Positions 6,220-30,673 of a stretch of DNA of 64,000 bases are shown here, in pieces. Under the pieces are notes generated by a model. It had not been told where the DNA came from and made no database searches. It saw only the letters and a list, made by a program, of their open reading frames with translations. The stretch is from an uncultured Erythrobacter sp. GTDB taxonomy: Bacteria > Pseudomonadota > Alphaproteobacteria > Sphingomonadales > Sphingomonadaceae. The position numbers and the translations under genes are program-made. The DNA is taken from positions 434,001-498,000 of the forward strand of contig CANNBH010000001.1 in assembly GCA_947502815.1 (NCBI GenBank), written 5' to 3'. Position 1 is the stretch's first letter. The number at the start of each line of letters is the position of its first letter.

Positions 6220-7077
6220 TTGAAGGTCTTGATCACTGGCGCAGGTGGACAATTGGGCGGCGCGCTTCAGCGGCTGGCCCCTTCGCATGCCGAAATCAAC
6301 GCTATTGATGTTGGTGATCTTGACCTCACCGACGAAGAAATGCTGCGCAATCGGCTGTCGTCAGAGGCGCCCGACATTATCATCAATGCGGCGGCCTACA
6401 CTGCGGTCGACAAGGCGGAGAGCGAGGAAGACCTCGCGGATGCGATCAATGCGCGGGCCGTGGCGATCATGGCGGAGGCAATGGAGGAACAAGGCGGGAA
6501 GCTGGTTCATGTCTCCACCGATTTCGTGTTCGATGGCACATCTTCCTGCGCTTACAAGCCCGAAGACACGCGCGCGCCGATTAGCGCCTATGGCCGCACC
6601 AAAGCGGCGGGCGAAGATCATGTGCGCGCCTGCGATATTTTGGTCCGCACCGCTTGGGTCTATGAGGCCGGAGGTGCGAATTTTGTCCGCACTATGATCC
6701 GCCTTATGAACGATCGCGATGCGCTCAAAGTGGTGGCCGATCAGATCGGAGCTCCAACCTGGGCAAGCGGGCTGGCGAGCACCATTTGGGGATTGATCGA
6801 TGCTGGTGCTACAGGGATATTCCATCACAGCGATGCCGGCACCGCCAGCTGGTATGATTTTGCCGTTGCAATCGCGGAAGAAGCGCATGCAATCGGCCTG
6901 ATCAACCAGATCCCGGCGATTGAACCCATCACCACTGCAGAATATCCGACCCCGGCGGCGCGTCCGGCATTTTCGTTGCTCGATTGCCGAGCGACCCGCG
7001 AAACGCTCGGCGATGCGCCTGTCCATTGGCGCGTAAACCTGCGCAAAATGCTCAAAAAGGAAGCGGCACTTGGCTAA
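6220..7077 (+). CDS. rfbD: dTDP-4-dehydrorhamnose reductase RmlD
   Basis: A 285-residue short-chain dehydrogenase that reduces dTDP-4-keto-rhamnose to dTDP-L-rhamnose. It shows the cofactor loop TGAGGQLGG near residues 6-14, the STDFVFDG segment and the catalytic YGRTKAAGE motif. I chose TTG 6220 because GAGGATGG lies four bases before it and the protein then begins with the usual KVLITGAGGQLG strand; TTG 6202 would add six residues. It ends eight bases inside the rfbB gene. Confidence 0.93.
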   Translation: MKVLITGAGGQLGGALQRLAPSHAEINAIDVGDLDLTDEEMLRNRLSSEAPDIIINAAAYTAVDKAESEEDLADAINARAVAIMAEAMEEQGGKLVHVSTDFVFDGTSSCAYKPEDTRAPISAYGRTKAAGEDHVRACDILVRTAWVYEAGGANFVRTMIRLMNDRDALKVVADQIGAPTWASGLASTIWGLIDAGATGIFHHSDAGTASWYDFAVAIAEEAHAIGLINQIPAIEPITTAEYPTPAARPAFSLLDCRATRETLGDAPVHWRVNLRKMLKKEAALG

Positions 7078-8119
7078 CCTACTCATCACCGGCGGCGCTG
7101 GATTTATCGGTGGCAATTTCGTGCATTATTGGAATGCGCGCCACTCTGATGATCAGTTGATCGTCTTGGATGCCCTGACATATGCTGGCAATCGATCAAC
7201 CATAGTTGATGCCCCGCACGCTGAGCTTATTGAAGGGGACATCCGTGATCAGGCTTTGGTTGAGAAACTGCTGACAGAGCGTGACATCACAACGATCGTG
7301 CACTTTGCAGCCGAAAGCCATGTTGATCGTTCGATCACTGGGCCAGACGCCTTTATCGACACCAATATTCTGGGCACCAACAGTCTGTTGAAAGCTGCAC
7401 GCAGCGTCTGGCTCGCCGGCGATGGCAAAGATCACCGTTTCCACCATATTTCCACCGATGAGGTGTACGGATCGCTTGGCGATGATGATCCCGCGTTTAG
7501 CGAGACCACGGCCTACGCCCCCAATTCGCCCTATTCTGCGTCAAAGGCGGCGTCCGATCATCTGGTGCGTGCCTATCACCACACCTATGGTTTGAACGTC
7601 ACGACCAGCAATTGTTCGAACAATTACGGCCCGTACCAATACCCTGAAAAGCTAATTCCATTGTTTTTCTTGAACGCCTTGTCAGGCCGCAATTTGCCGA
7701 TTTACGGCGACGGCATGAATGTTCGCGATTGGTTGCATGTTGAGGATCACTGCCGCGGGATTGAGGCATGTTTGACACAAGGGCGACCAGGCGAAACTTA
7801 CAATATTGGTGGCGGTGCAGAATTGCCCAATATGGAAGTGATCGACGCCATTTGCCGTGAAGTCGACCTCGCTATGGAGGAGGTTGATGGATTGGCTGAC
7901 CGCTATCCCGATGCGCCCGCAGCAAAGGGCCTAAAGAGCGACACGCTCAAGACCTTTGTGACGGATCGCGCAGGGCATGATCGGCGTTATGCGATCGACG
8001 AGACGAAGGCGCGCGGTGAATTGGGATATGCGGCGACGCGCACGTTTGACGAAGGGCTGCGTCACACGTTGCGGTGGTATTTGGATAATGAAAGGTGGTG
8101 GCGGCCGCTGCTCGGCTAG
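7070..8119 (+). CDS. rfbB: dTDP-glucose 4,6-dehydratase RmlB
   Basis: A 349-residue extended short-chain dehydrogenase that converts dTDP-glucose to dTDP-4-keto-6-deoxyglucose. The NAD-binding TGGAGFIG is at 7-14, the STDE motif with catalytic aspartate and glutamate at 128-131, and the YSASK catalytic pair at Y155 and K159. The start is TTG 7070, overlapping rfbD by eight bases. This is the last rhamnose gene, placed after rmlC and rmlD rather than first as in many enteric clusters. Confidence 0.96.
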   Translation: MANLLITGGAGFIGGNFVHYWNARHSDDQLIVLDALTYAGNRSTIVDAPHAELIEGDIRDQALVEKLLTERDITTIVHFAAESHVDRSITGPDAFIDTNILGTNSLLKAARSVWLAGDGKDHRFHHISTDEVYGSLGDDDPAFSETTAYAPNSPYSASKAASDHLVRAYHHTYGLNVTTSNCSNNYGPYQYPEKLIPLFFLNALSGRNLPIYGDGMNVRDWLHVEDHCRGIEACLTQGRPGETYNIGGGAELPNMEVIDAICREVDLAMEEVDGLADRYPDAPAAKGLKSDTLKTFVTDRAGHDRRYAIDETKARGELGYAATRTFDEGLRHTLRWYLDNERWWRPLLG

Positions 8120-8149
8120 GCACTGAGGCCTCCCTCAATCCGCTGGGTC

Positions 8150-8575
8150 TTAAACTTCCACAGGCTTGGCAGGGTTGCCGCGTACATGGGCGCCGGCTTC
8201 CAAATCACGAATAACGACCGATCCGGGTTCAATTTTGCACCCTTCACCGATTGTGATGCCGGGCATAATGATGGCGCGCGCGCCGATTTTGGTGCCGCGT
8301 CCAATGTGTGTGTCGAGATAGACGCCCCGGGTCATATCGTGCGTTAGGATCGAAGCCTCTTCATCAACAACGCAGTCCTCACCAATCCGAATTCCGCGAG
8401 GCCATGTGCGGTCAATATAGGCAGAGCTCGCAATCCAAGCGCTCTTATGGATCTCCATACCCCAGACATATTTGCGAACCAGCCGATCCAATAATTGTCC
8501 CAAGCTGCGATGCCTCTTAACGCTGGCAATATCGCCCGTTATAGTCTTGGGATCAGGGCTGAGATCGTTAGTCAT
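8150..8575 (-). CDS. Left-handed beta-helix acyltransferase (WbbJ-type)
   Basis: A 141-residue protein made largely of hexapeptide repeats of the left-handed beta-helix acetyltransferase fold ([42 protein letters not shown]), ending with the typical VRGNPAKPV. Such enzymes O- or N-acetylate sugars of surface polysaccharide using acetyl-CoA. I place the start at ATG 8575; the frame continues upstream to 9034, but that part is the antisense shadow of the next gene. It converges with rfbB and diverges from the second acyltransferase with only about 19 bases between start codons. Confidence 0.82.
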
Positions 8576-8594
8576 AAAGGGTGGTTCCACACAG

Positions 8595-9056
8595 ATGCCG
8601 CTTAAGTCTTTAAACCTTCTAAGACCGCTGCGTCTACGCCTTACAGGTATGCGGCGCGCATGGCTGATCCGTAAGCATGGCATCAACCTTTCAGACAGCG
8701 TTAGCCTCTCGTTGACAGCCCGGTTTTTGAGCTCTGAGCAGGGCTCAATTTCGGTTGGGTCAACGACTTTGGTGGCATTCAAATCGTTGTTGATGTCACG
8801 CGACATCGATGGAAACACGCGCCCGGTCAAAATAGGATCGAACTGCTTTATCGGTGGCGGAGCGGTGGTTCTGCCAGGCGTTGAGATTGGTGACAATTGT
8901 ATCGTCGGGGCGGGCGCCGTTGTCTTTGATGATGTGCCAGCCAATTCGATCGCAGCGGGCAACCCTGCGCGAATTATTGCCCGCGACGTTGAAGTGTTGC
9001 CATTTGGCCGACTGCCCGAATCTGTCGAGAACACTCAGAAAATGTGGTTCACCTGA
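8595..9056 (+). CDS. Left-handed beta-helix acyltransferase
   Basis: A 153-residue protein with C-terminal hexapeptide repeats ([33 protein letters not shown]) and the family-typical [11 protein letters not shown] close. The N-terminal 60 residues are less conserved. Together with its divergent neighbour it is expected to acetylate residues of the polysaccharide made by this locus. ATG 8595 was chosen over upstream starts because earlier codons overlap the divergent gene. No strong ribosome binding site is visible, so the start is uncertain. Confidence 0.78.
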
Positions 9057-26914: not shown

Positions 26915-28855
26915 ATGCGCTTGTCATGGAATAAAACCGTGCTTAGGGGCGCCGGAATTGGTGTCTTTGCGACCGCGCTCACCGCATGCGGTGGTCAGGC
27001 CGCGCTGGATGAAGCGCAGACCGGCGATGGCACGGAGACAATCGAACTCGCAGAATTTCCCGACCGCCCATATTGGGGCGACACCCATCTGCACACAGAC
27101 AATTCTGTAGACGCTTTTGGTTTCGGAGTTCGCCTCGGGCCAGAGGCGGCCTTGCGCTTTGCCAGCGGCGAAGAGGTGACGGCGACAACAGGGGCGCAGG
27201 CGAAGCTATCCCGTCCGCTCGATTTTCTCGTGATTGCCGATCACTCTGATGCGCTGGGCGCAACCCGGCGTTTGTATGACGCACCTCGTTGGTACGTGAA
27301 CTGGGTCATCGGCGATGAGACTGTGCTTCGCTGGTATGACATGATGCATGAAAGCCCGGAACAGTCGCAAAGGGCCATCGGCGAGCTGATCACCGCTGCA
27401 GCAAATGGCACCGTTCCGGAAAGCCTGTCTGACCCAGAAACAGCGGCTGAAAACACTAAGGATATTTGGAACACGCATCTCGGCTTGCTCGACCGCTATA
27501 ACCAGCCGGGCACATTCACCGCGCTTGCCGGATATGAATGGACCCGCATGCCAGATGGCAACAATCTGCACCGGGTGGTGATGTTCCGCGATGGCAGCGA
27601 CCGGACCAGCCAAACTGTGCCGTTTCCGGGTCTCAGCACCTCAGCAGAACAGCTGTGGGACTATATGGCGGCCTATGAGGAGCAGACCGGTGGTCAAGTG
27701 CTGGCGATTCCGCACAATGGCAACCTTTCCAATGGTTTGATGTTCGAAACCACAATGCCCGATGGGTCGCCAATGACTGCAGAATATGCGGCCAAGCGTG
27801 CCGCGGCGGAGCCCGTGGTTGAAGTCACGCAGATCAAAGGTGACAGCGAAACCCATCCGTTCCTCTCTCCGAATGACGAGATGGCCGGGTTTGGCGTTAG
27901 CGGTTGGGAGCTGGGCAACCTGCCTCTAACGCAGGAATCCACCCCTGATATGTACGCTGGTTCCTATGCTCGGTCGGCATTGCTCAGAGGCCTTTCGTTG
28001 GAGCAGCAGCTGGGCGTGAATCCCTATTCGTTTGGTATGATCGGATCGACGGACAGCCACACGTCGCTGGCCACTGGGGATGAGGACAATTTCTGGGGCA
28101 AGCACACCGGCAATGAGCCGGCGAACGAGGAACGTGCGCTCTTGGGCCAAAACCTTGGTACCCGAGTTGGGCGTTTTGGCTGGCACTATCTGGCAGGCGG
28201 CTACGCAGCGGCTTGGGCGCGGGGAAACACACGCGCTGAGATTTTTGACGCCTTTGCCCGCCGCGAAGTCTACGCAACAACCGGCCCGCGCATGAGCGTG
28301 CGCATTTTTGGCGGGTTTGATTTCACCGGTCAGGATTGGGATGGTGACTGGGTACGCGCGGGATACACGCGCGGTGTGCCCATGGGCGGCGAATTGACCG
28401 ATCAAGGCAGTGCGCCAACATTCTTGATCAGCGCTTTGAAAGACCCAGACGGCGCCAACCTCGACCGTGTGCAGGTCGTCAAAGGTTGGATCACCGCGTC
28501 GGGTGAAACGCAAGAGCGGGTCTATGATGTCGTATGGAGCGATATGGACATCCGAGTGCGCAGCGGTGGCCGGATCCCAGCGGTTGGCGATACAGTGAAT
28601 CGTGAAGATGCAACCTACACCAACGACATTGGTGCTGCTGAACTACGCACGACATGGGCCGATCCTGATTACCGCGCTGGCCAAAATGCGTTCTATTATG
28701 TCCGAGTGCTGGAGATCCCCACGCCGCGCTGGCCATTGTATGATGCTGCCCGCTTTGGGATTGAACTATCAGAAGACGCCATGGCCGAAGCGGTTGCGCA
28801 AGAGCGTGCGTACACTTCGCCAATCTGGCTGAAATCACCCGTAACGGCTCAGTAA
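26915..28855 (+). CDS. DUF3604 lipoprotein (PHP-like metal-dependent fold)
   Basis: A 646-residue exported protein. A signal peptide ends in lipobox LTAC (Cys about residue 25). The core shows PHP-like metal-binding motifs: GDTHLHTDNS near the N-terminus, VIADHSDALGA and GSTDSHTSLATGDE. These suggest a divalent-metal hydrolase in the periplasm, but DUF3604 has no proven reaction that I know of. ATG 26915 has AGAGGGAGAA just upstream. It is followed after four bases by a parvulin-like gene and a HupE-like gene, a grouping I recall from other marine proteobacteria. Confidence 0.85.
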   Translation: MRLSWNKTVLRGAGIGVFATALTACGGQAALDEAQTGDGTETIELAEFPDRPYWGDTHLHTDNSVDAFGFGVRLGPEAALRFASGEEVTATTGAQAKLSRPLDFLVIADHSDALGATRRLYDAPRWYVNWVIGDETVLRWYDMMHESPEQSQRAIGELITAAANGTVPESLSDPETAAENTKDIWNTHLGLLDRYNQPGTFTALAGYEWTRMPDGNNLHRVVMFRDGSDRTSQTVPFPGLSTSAEQLWDYMAAYEEQTGGQVLAIPHNGNLSNGLMFETTMPDGSPMTAEYAAKRAAAEPVVEVTQIKGDSETHPFLSPNDEMAGFGVSGWELGNLPLTQESTPDMYAGSYARSALLRGLSLEQQLGVNPYSFGMIGSTDSHTSLATGDEDNFWGKHTGNEPANEERALLGQNLGTRVGRFGWHYLAGGYAAAWARGNTRAEIFDAFARREVYATTGPRMSVRIFGGFDFTGQDWDGDWVRAGYTRGVPMGGELTDQGSAPTFLISALKDPDGANLDRVQVVKGWITASGETQERVYDVVWSDMDIRVRSGGRIPAVGDTVNREDATYTNDIGAAELRTTWADPDYRAGQNAFYYVRVLEIPTPRWPLYDAARFGIELSEDAMAEAVAQERAYTSPIWLKSPVTAQ

Positions 28856-28859
28856 AATC

Positions 28860-29663
28860 GTGACGCGCCCTGCCTGGACGCAAGCCAGTTGGCTGCGGGA
28901 GCCGCTGGTTCATTTCATCACCTTAGGCGCAGTGGTCTACCTTGCGCTGACATGGGGCGGGGAGCCGGTTGATCCCGCCTCACGTGTTATTGAGGTGGGA
29001 GCAGAGGAACAGGCGCAGCTGGCGCTCAGTTTTGAAAATGTCATGGGCCGCGCGCCAACCGATGCTGAATTGGACGCGCGAATAGAGCAATTTGTGCGCG
29101 ATGAAGTGCTCTACCGCGAGGCTATCCGGCTCGGCCTTGACCAAGGGGATGCCGTCGTGCGGCAACGCATGGTCGCAAAGATGGACATGTCCGCCAGCGC
29201 CGCCGCTGAAGCTGCTCAACCCGATGAAACGGTCTTGCGCGCCTTTTACGATGCCAACCCCGATCGCTATTCAGGCGAAGTTTTGGTGACGTTTGACCAA
29301 GCGTATTTCACCGAGGAAGCAGCGGCTGCTCAAGCCCTTGGTCGCGGTGCAGTAGAGGGCGAACCGATCAGCCTTCCGAGCAGCGTCGAGGCCGCCAATC
29401 TGCGCGATGTGCAAAGCCGGTTTGGCGAAGTATTTGCGCGTGGCATAGCCGAATTGCAGCCCAGCGATGAATGGCAAGGGCCGATCCAATCCGGCTTCGG
29501 CTGGCACCTTGTGAAACTTTCCGAGCGCCGTGCCGACGTGCTGGAGTTTGAAGCCTTGCGCGACCGAGTCGAAAACGACTGGCGCAGCGAAGAAATTGCC
29601 GCGCGAAAGCTACGCGCTTTTGATCTTCTGCGCAGTGCGTACCGGGTTGAGATCGACCGGTGA
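28860..29663 (+). CDS. Membrane-anchored parvulin-like peptidyl-prolyl isomerase
   Basis: A 267-residue protein with one N-terminal membrane helix (about residues 15-32), a SurA_N-like helical segment (MGRAPTDAELDARIEQFVRDEVLYREAIRLGL) and a C-terminal rotamase-like part (FARGIAELQPSDEWQGPIQSGFGWHLVKLSER). It would assist folding of exported proteins from the inner membrane, possibly the DUF3604 lipoprotein encoded before it. The start is GTG 28860; its stop overlaps the next GTG start by four bases. Confidence 0.8.
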   Translation: MTRPAWTQASWLREPLVHFITLGAVVYLALTWGGEPVDPASRVIEVGAEEQAQLALSFENVMGRAPTDAELDARIEQFVRDEVLYREAIRLGLDQGDAVVRQRMVAKMDMSASAAAEAAQPDETVLRAFYDANPDRYSGEVLVTFDQAYFTEEAAAAQALGRGAVEGEPISLPSSVEAANLRDVQSRFGEVFARGIAELQPSDEWQGPIQSGFGWHLVKLSERRADVLEFEALRDRVENDWRSEEIAARKLRAFDLLRSAYRVEIDR

Positions 29664-30673
29664 GGGACTTGTTTCGCTGGGTCTGTACGGCGTTATTGGT
29701 GGTCATCGCTCAGCCATTGCTGGCTGATGAACTGCGCCCGTCGGTGGTTGAAATGATCGAGCAAGATGCGGCCTCATCGCCCGGCGTTTGGATACTTGAA
29801 TGGAAACTACCGGTCGCCGCGCGGCGCGGACAGGCTGCTGCGCCGCTGGCACGGCCTGTGGTTCCGGCATCGTGCGATATTGTAGGAGAGCCCGTCCGGC
29901 GCGCATCGCCCTTGGCGCTCCTTGGTAGAGCGCAATTGCAATGTAACGGCGGGCTTGCGGGTGAGAGCTTTGGCCTCTCTCAATTGATCGGTAGTTCCGA
30001 TGGGATCGCACGCTTTGTGCCGCAGAACCGGCCTGTGCAATCCTTTCGCTTGACCGCTGCTGCGCCGTCAGCCGTGCTCCTTGCGGAGCCGGATAGACTC
30101 CAAGTTCTGCGGGACTATTTCGTCATCGGTGCCGAGCATATTCTGTTTGGCTGGGATCACTTGCTGTTCGTGATTGCACTGGTCTTGCTGGTGCGATCGC
30201 CATGGTCGGTGGTAAAGGCCGCCACCGCGTTCACCATTGCCCATTCAATCACATTGGTTGCGACCTCCCTCGGTTACACTGGCCTTCCTAGCCGACCAGT
30301 TGAGGCGCTGATTGCGCTGTCGATCGTCTTTTTGGCGGTCGAAGTGGCATTGGTTTTGCGCGATCCAAACAGACAGACGCTCACTCGGCGCGCACCTTGG
30401 CTTGTCGCGTTCGGATTTGGTCTGTTCCACGGCTTTGGATTCGCCGGAGCGCTGGCTGAGATTGGCTTGCCCCAAGGGGAGGTCCTTGCAGCTCTCGTGG
30501 CGTTCAATGTTGGAGTTGAGGCAGGGCAATTGCTTGTTATCGCTTTCCTCATCGCGCTGCTCAAAGCCGCATCGCGTTGGGCGCCCAAAGCAGAAGCGCC
30601 AACGATCCGAGCAATGACATATGGGATCGGGCTAACGGGCAGCTTTTGGTTGATTGAGCGGGTGGTGGGTTAG
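29660..30673 (+). CDS. HupE/UreJ-like membrane protein
   Basis: A 337-residue protein with a signal peptide, a periplasmic N-terminal region of about 130 residues and six or so C-terminal helices. The membrane part carries EHILFGWDHLLFVIALVLLV, FTIAHSITL and HGFGFAGALAEIGLP, the histidine and aspartate pattern of HupE/UreJ nickel or cobalt transporters. In this subfamily the metal role is unproven. Its last three bases overlap the stop codon of the convergent efflux operon. Confidence 0.82.
   Translation: MRDLFRWVCTALLVVIAQPLLADELRPSVVEMIEQDAASSPGVWILEWKLPVAARRGQAAAPLARPVVPASCDIVGEPVRRASPLALLGRAQLQCNGGLAGESFGLSQLIGSSDGIARFVPQNRPVQSFRLTAAAPSAVLLAEPDRLQVLRDYFVIGAEHILFGWDHLLFVIALVLLVRSPWSVVKAATAFTIAHSITLVATSLGYTGLPSRPVEALIALSIVFLAVEVALVLRDPNRQTLTRRAPWLVAFGFGLFHGFGFAGALAEIGLPQGEVLAALVAFNVGVEAGQLLVIAFLIALLKAASRWAPKAEAPTIRAMTYGIGLTGSFWLIERVVG

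Follow-up and report, generated by a model that had tools for sequence, protein, structure and literature searches.

What do a DUF3604 protein, a parvulin-like protein (PPI, for peptidyl-prolyl isomerase) and a HupE/UreJ_2 protein do together? Their genes lie end to end in the window analysed here, a stretch of 64,000 nucleotides from an uncultured Erythrobacter sp. (contig CANNBH010000001.1, positions 434,001 to 498,000 of the forward strand). The original prediction, made from the letters of this window, took them for a tight three-gene unit, and the coordinates confirm this layout: within 26915-30673 the DUF3604 and PPI genes are 4 bases apart (28856-28859), and the PPI and HupE genes share 4 bases, GTGA, at 29660-29663. 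The GTG that opens the PPI gene is the earliest start available downstream of an in-frame stop at 28842. Our analysis of other genomes indicates that the trio is a conserved functional module, held together by a strong and firm association, in which the PPI-HupE pair likely assists DUF3604.

Conservation of the trio across genomes

We counted gene neighbourhoods in three sets of 23, 80 and 34 loci, with thresholds that leave the weaker HupE of two loci (L106 and L124) uncounted. A search of relatives found PF12228, the DUF3604 family, in 21 of 61 genomes. The 23 regions fetched around these matches comprise 19 complete trios, 18 in the order DUF3604-PPI-HupE and one in the order DUF3604-HupE-PPI, and four regions with DUF3604 alone. 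The second set, from a species-wide contig scan, takes the top 80 of its 578 confirmed matches and so favours close relatives; it gave 47 trios, six loci with DUF3604 and PPI, and 27 with DUF3604 alone. Among the six, the contig ends soon past PPI in three (L064, L072 and L074), the fetched stretch ends in one (L096), and the other two are L106 and L124. A phylum-wide search added 34 regions, of which 24 contain the trio and 10 DUF3604 alone.

By record titles, DUF3604 occurs in several phyla, and trio loci are found in records as distant as Cyclobacteriaceae (L094), Microseira wollei (L107) and Prosthecobacter (L113). The order is PPI-HupE-DUF3604 in 6 of the 47 contig-scan trios, and among the phylum-wide regions one has the pair on the strand opposite DUF3604 and one has DUF3604 inverted. 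The CoA-transferase and MaoC genes upstream of the trio, by comparison, were seen in same-genus regions only, among the 23 tested. Because the trio recurs, reordered, in distant genomes and the CoA-transferase/MaoC linkage is confined to the genus, the arrangement is neither chance nor mere local synteny. Distances between the proteins are also correlated (DUF3604-PPI 0.80, DUF3604-HupE 0.81, PPI-HupE 0.88, against a permutation maximum of 0.23) over the 77 of 87 loci left once near-duplicates were removed, as expected of co-inherited genes.

The joint role proposed in the original prediction hinged on the three genes occurring together in other genomes, which they do. We searched one draw of 398 Pseudomonadota genomes with PF12228, PF13795 (HupE_UreJ_2) and a PPI profile, A6. 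PF12228 matched in 29 genomes, 26 of them strongly (E <1e-20), the weak G091, G189 and G302 being excluded; PF13795 matched in 118, with 96 above cut-off. PPI scores fell into two classes, above 200 bits in 26 genomes and at most 76.3 bits, and matches below 200 bits were excluded. The 26 genomes with strong DUF3604 and the 26 with PPI have 25 in common (Fisher P 2e-37, uncorrected for relatedness). These 25 span 12 family labels, and none is without a HupE_UreJ_2 match. G221 is the one whose DUF3604 has decayed to a remnant, its last part with a stop.

Unlinked pairs and gene copy number

Is the pair always next to its partner? We selected 40 HupE_UreJ_2 regions without DUF3604 within ~5 kb from the longer list of PF13795 matches. 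In three (G360, G321 and G405) PPI is present and HupE is of the trio type (E <1e-110); the remaining 37 have no PPI, and their HupE proteins match at E 3e-29 to 8e-66. The trio-type HupE separates from other HupE_UreJ_2 proteins, and PPI and HupE are a tight pair of a distinct type. In G360 and G321 the pair is unlinked, with DUF3604 elsewhere in the genome. Conversely, an assembly-wide search for PPI, run on 31 handles of which four were loci already with PPI, found PPI above 200 bits elsewhere in the assembly for 21 of the 27 contig-scan loci with DUF3604 alone.

The 25 shared genomes contain 36 or more full DUF3604 genes against 29 for PPI, both counts being lower bounds, with up to three DUF3604 and up to six PPI candidates scored per genome (G379 has six DUF3604 candidates, three of them scored). 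DUF3604 outnumbers PPI in 6 of the 25, and the reverse holds in G221 only; the PPI-HupE pair therefore looks like a helper unit that also acts in trans. At several loci (e.g. L067, L084, L092 and L113) tandem DUF3604 genes stand beside one pair, and a single pair can go with two or three DUF3604 genes. A fixed three-protein complex would account for these copy numbers and tandem genes less well than a pair that helps one or more clients.

Two loci required separate treatment. At L161:4719-5717 (minus strand) a single frame begins with the N-terminus of DUF3604 and continues into the C-terminal half of HupE, and PPI is gone. We rejected it as a real DUF3604-HupE fusion, since the start of DUF3604 runs into the end of HupE; the frame is likely the deletion scar of a DUF3604-PPI-HupE operon. 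A Microvirga plasmid was considered as a case of the pair without DUF3604 and rejected, as an unlisted DUF3604 is present there in two overlapping frames.

Table 1. Coordinates of the three genes and of the conserved motifs in their products, in window positions
Feature	Position	Strand	Details
DUF3604 protein gene	26915..28855	+	ATG 26915, stop 28853-28855; 646 aa; PF12228 802 bits, E 3e-241
PPI (parvulin-like) gene	28860..29663	+	GTG 28860, stop 29661-29663; 267 aa; PF13145 Rotamase_2 56 bits, E 9e-15
HupE/UreJ_2 gene	29660..30673	+	GTG 29660, stop 30671-30673; 337 aa; PF13795 157 bits, E 4e-46
PHP motif I WGDTHLH, residues 54-60 (H58, H60)	27074..27094	+	H58 and H60 invariant in 56 aligned DUF3604 proteins
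PHP C-terminal motif DSH (D380, H382)	28052..28060	+	D380 and H382 invariant in 56 aligned DUF3604 proteins
HX5DH motif of the HupE/UreJ family (H160, D166, H167)	30137..30160	+	H160 and H167 invariant, D166 at least 90%, in 31 proteins

The DUF3604 protein

The match of the window protein to PF12228 is full-length, covering profile positions 3-590 of 591 at a score (Table 1) far above the gathering score of 20.4. Ten residues are invariant in 56 DUF3604 sequences (H58, H60, D66, D109, H110, E208, H219, H267, D380 and H382), and they match the motif pattern of PHP proteins, which suggests a metal centre of that type, with ligand roles assigned by motif; H58 and H60 presumably bind metal as they do in the PHP family. 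An AlphaFold2 model built from a 56-sequence alignment (pLDDT 92) points the same way. By VIA-align its closest match is the PHP phosphoesterase TM0559 (2anu; Z 16.7, rmsd 3.7 over 214 residues), followed by BVU_3505 (Z 16.5), RNase AM (9.0) and Pol III alpha (7.3-8.1), and all 11 rows with Z >7 are PHP proteins. Foldseek alone gave no hit for the model at E <=0.001, and the fold assignment depends on the VIA-align re-comparison. The core of DUF3604 is thus predicted to have a PHP-type metallohydrolase fold, in support of the PHP-like metal hydrolase originally proposed.

DUF3604 resembles PHP phosphoesterases (TM0559, BVU_3505, RNase AM and the PHP domain of Pol III alpha) in its core fold and in the HxH, DH, E, H, DxH motif pattern. 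Unlike them, it is exported and larger, with residues 460-644 weakly matching many Ig-like domains and so probably forming a C-terminal Ig-like beta domain; its sequence has no match among PDB chains at E up to 1. Kinship with CehA-type hydrolases was rejected: a CehA-like protein on plasmid CP099604, which shares a gene run with a PPI-HupE pair and has a sub-threshold match to the CehA/McbA family (42 bits, cut-off 80), aligns with DUF3604 at an hhalign probability of 3%.

A lipobox, LTAC, at residues 22-25 predicts a lipoprotein modified at Cys25. A simple pattern search of DUF3604 N-terminal stretches, some of which may include sequence 5ʹ of the start codon, found a lipobox-like site in 71 of 143 and an RR-like pattern in 13 of 143 (153 rows, 10 of them without a clear core). 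Sec export looks like the rule for DUF3604, and the metal would be loaded outside the cytosol.

The parvulin-like protein

PPI opens with a short stretch and one hydrophobic segment (REPLVHFITLGAVVYLALTW), followed by a Rotamase_2 domain whose score is about twice the PF13145 cut-off of 27, and its profile matches SurA, PrsA and HP_0175. Two aligned positions are what we take to be the catalytic His pair of parvulins. The second (H216) is invariant in the 29 aligned PPIs, the window protein included; the first is Gln in 22 of these, among them the window protein, and His in seven. These are alignment counts, used in place of a regular-expression search that gave mis-hits. The window PPI thus lacks the active-site His pair of parvulin isomerases. 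The original description of this protein as a parvulin-like isomerase stands in its first half, through the Rotamase domain and the likeness to SurA and PrsA, but the label “isomerase” is doubtful because Gln replaces the first catalytic His.

PPI is best read as a membrane-anchored periplasmic chaperone of the SurA/PrsA type. With these chaperones it shares a PPIC/Rotamase domain and an N-terminal anchor, the latter a trait of PrsA-like foldases. It differs from them in the His-to-Gln change and in being tied to a single enzyme family rather than acting generally.

The HupE/UreJ_2 protein

HupE consists of a signal peptide, a periplasmic beta domain (residues ~23-140) and a helical permease domain (~146-336) that carries the HX5DH motif. 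In the AlphaFold2 model (pLDDT 90) the periplasmic domain is beta-rich, and among known structures it is most like two zinc-binding proteins, ZrgA at Z 9.8 and PA4063 at Z 8.4, in a comparison of overall fold rather than of zinc-site residues. The structure of Ang-1 is not among the matches listed, which are ZrgA and PA4063. We did not use a match of the permease domain (residues 145-337) to Tic214 of the chloroplast TOC-TIC complex (Z 10.1, rmsd 3.9 over 180 residues), since this is below a telling level for helical bundles; it may reflect a common helical arrangement only. A search of the PDB with the HupE sequence gave no usable relative. The HupE gene (TAG 30671-30673, plus strand) and an outer-membrane efflux gene (TAA 30670-30672, minus strand) meet tail to tail at 30670-30673, their stops overlapping.

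PMC12537917 describes the HupE family as a nickel permease, with uptake proposed, and HupE_UreJ_2 proteins with exported metal-binding “anglerase” domains that bind Cu or Ni and have a fully conserved N-terminal His. Its main text contains no occurrence of “DUF3604” or “peptidyl”. The window HupE resembles these nickel permeases and the anglerases Ang-1 and Ang-2, as the same source presents them, in having a HupE_UreJ_2 permease domain with HX5DH and an exported domain ahead of it. It differs from the anglerases of that source (PMC12537917) in that its mature protein is predicted to start with Asp (cleavage between PLLA and DELRP) in place of His1, and in belonging to a distinct type linked to PPI and DUF3604. 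More broadly, trio-type HupE proteins start with DE in 34 and with HE in 18 of 71 assigned cases, and at least 17 of 24 assigned starts among other HupE rows begin with His. Cleavage was placed by pattern rather than by a signal-peptide program, and no start could be assigned in 20 of the 91 trio-type rows or in 20 of the 44 others; the 44 include six weak or partial ones (L040, L052, L106, L111, L124 and L161). The window HupE may function like an anglerase, though without its defining N-terminal His, and metal transport by the trio HupE, of nickel or another metal, is putative.

Would nickel for urease or hydrogenase explain HupE? Across the 25 shared genomes urease is strong (E <1e-30) in 10, and hydrogenase is above cut-off in four (best E 1e-18). 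In the window's own genome no NiFe hydrogenase was matched, and the urease match falls short of the cut-off (E 6e-4). That genome gives this rationale no support, and we rejected it.

Wider gene context

Some alphaproteobacterial trios have further neighbours. Extra PF04955 HupE_UreJ permeases adjoin the trio at L270 (two over cut-off) and L271 (one over, one just under), with blastp homologues at the alphaproteobacterial loci L137 and L153. An exported-looking protein without a Pfam match adjoins alphaproteobacterial trios at L237:7612-8808 and L271:6212-7288, with blastp homologues at L111, L127, L137 and L141; the two that were examined are 358 and 398 aa long and each have an ACxxC motif near the N-terminus. 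L271 itself (CP049029, Rhodobacteraceae SC52 plasmid) has a DUF3604 cut down to 206 aa, which shares its gene run with PPI and three HupE-like genes. Downstream, behind a Zur-like box, come two genes for GTP-binding proteins, of which one was tested and is of the cobW type, and DUF1826.

Two other plasmids carry relatives of the pair and no DUF3604 nearby. In L236 (plasmid CP099604; PPI 185 bits, HupE 296 bits) the neighbours of the pair, at L236:4092-6197 and 6273-8936, are a PHP-like protein that is secreted and a spermidine-synthase-like membrane protein of 888 aa; nikR and a TonB receptor lie upstream. The first of these neighbours, the CehA-like protein mentioned above, has PHP-like motifs. 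The more distant pair at L269:7974-9795 (NZ_CP141945, Novosphingobium sp. RL4 plasmid; PPI 173 bits, HupE 224 bits) lies behind molybdopterin-dehydrogenase subunits, and within 16.8 kb are the urease accessory gene UreD, a TonB receptor and two arginase-family proteins with signal-like N-termini. L236 and L269 hint that the clients of the pair may extend to exported metalloenzymes other than DUF3604.

Discussion

How might the pair assist DUF3604? Our best reading, to which we give an even chance, is that PPI and HupE are a folding and metal-handling pair for DUF3604. DUF3604 would be the client enzyme, exported unfolded to the periplasm. PPI, tethered to the inner membrane, would hold and fold it as a SurA/PrsA-like chaperone and not as a true isomerase. 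HupE, by means of its periplasmic and HX5DH permease domains, would handle the divalent metal that the PHP site requires, and folding and metal loading would be coupled. In its full form, which we hold with rather less confidence, this is a dedicated system of periplasmic metallocentre maturation: a degenerate-parvulin chaperone and a HupE permease would see to the folding and metallation of exported PHP hydrolases, acting in trans on several paralogues, and rarer branches of the pair would serve other exported metalloenzymes, for example CehA-like PHP or arginase-family proteins.

Several observations weigh against this proposal. One genome (G181) has a divergent 691-aa DUF3604 and no PPI-HupE pair, and another (G405) has the pair and no DUF3604; the plasmid pairs of L236 and L269 likewise lack a nearby DUF3604. 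Among the 27 assemblies drawn from DUF3604-alone loci, four (G467, G472, G475 and G479) have only a weaker, partial PPI match of 117-155 bits and two (G466 and G474) have no PPI match. Boxes for Zur, NikR, MntR, Mur and Pho showed no enrichment over shuffles in 145 upstream stretches, and a riboswitch search of 20 loci found none, only tRNAs. The window HupE is without the His1 metal site of anglerases. Import is the direction of transport proposed for known HupE proteins, and DUF3604 is exported by Sec. To bring metal to it in the periplasm, HupE would have to run in reverse or act by capture, and such a supply, part of the original prediction, is putative. Finally, co-occurrence shows a shared role and not a mechanism.

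In one alternative, metal or nutrient scavenging, the purpose of the trio is uptake and DUF3604 is not a client of HupE. DUF3604 would cleave an extracellular organophosphate or metal-chelating ester, HupE would import the freed metal, and PPI would fold the exported parts. We regard such scavenging as unlikely, but it is the most credible of the alternatives. It draws on the known nickel permease activity of the HupE family, on the likeness of the periplasmic domain to the zinc proteins ZrgA and PA4063, and on the plasmid pairs found by nikR and a TonB receptor (L236) and by UreD and a TonB receptor (L269); a locus with a degenerate DUF3604 also fits, where cobW-type GTPases and DUF1826 lie downstream and the gap ahead of them contains a Zur-like box. 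However, metal-regulator boxes are not enriched upstream of the trio, and the several DUF3604 paralogues per pair and the sulfatase and DUF1254 neighbours look more like a catabolic enzyme family.

Those neighbours raise the second alternative, that DUF3604 is secreted to hydrolyse ester or phosphodiester bonds in some environmental compound and that HupE has been altered to carry a non-metal cargo. Arylsulfatase (10 loci), DUF1254 (11), adenylate cyclase (9) and an AraC regulator (6) are neighbours in 121 loci, and each is found at 0 of 37 control HupE loci. The set leaves out 30 close-relative loci and includes the DUF3604-free plasmid stretches L269 and L272, and the comparison is biased, its queries having been drawn from recurrent neighbours of the same loci and its controls from other genera. 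Rhizobial plasmids often carry DUF3604 (79 plasmid records, with PPI in 77 by a separate count), as might be expected of a catabolic function. The continued conservation of HX5DH and other HupE family residues argues against a change of cargo, and we consider this alternative improbable. Passive linkage, in which the genes are adjacent by shared ancestry and have no joint role, might be suggested by the upstream CoA-transferase and MaoC genes, which are also mostly kept within the genus, but is already contradicted by the reordering, the opposite strands, the unlinked co-occurrence and the near-perfect shared presence over 12 families, and is very improbable indeed.

In the open-access literature that we searched, DUF3604 is named in a single paper, once, in a row of a transposon-insertion table (PMC11925237). 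PF12228 has no mention in the open-access papers searched; subscription papers lay mostly outside the search, and a prior description is possible. A query for HupE/UreJ with a peptidyl-prolyl operon matched in open-access literature only PMC11633204, which is unrelated.

The DUF3604-PPI-HupE trio would seem to be a small, undescribed helper system for the DUF3604 enzyme. The regular partners of DUF3604 offer a direct route to its study, through co-expression of all three proteins. The trio would also bear on how exported metalloenzymes obtain the right metal, and on the purpose of HupE_UreJ_2 proteins outside hydrogenase and urease clusters.

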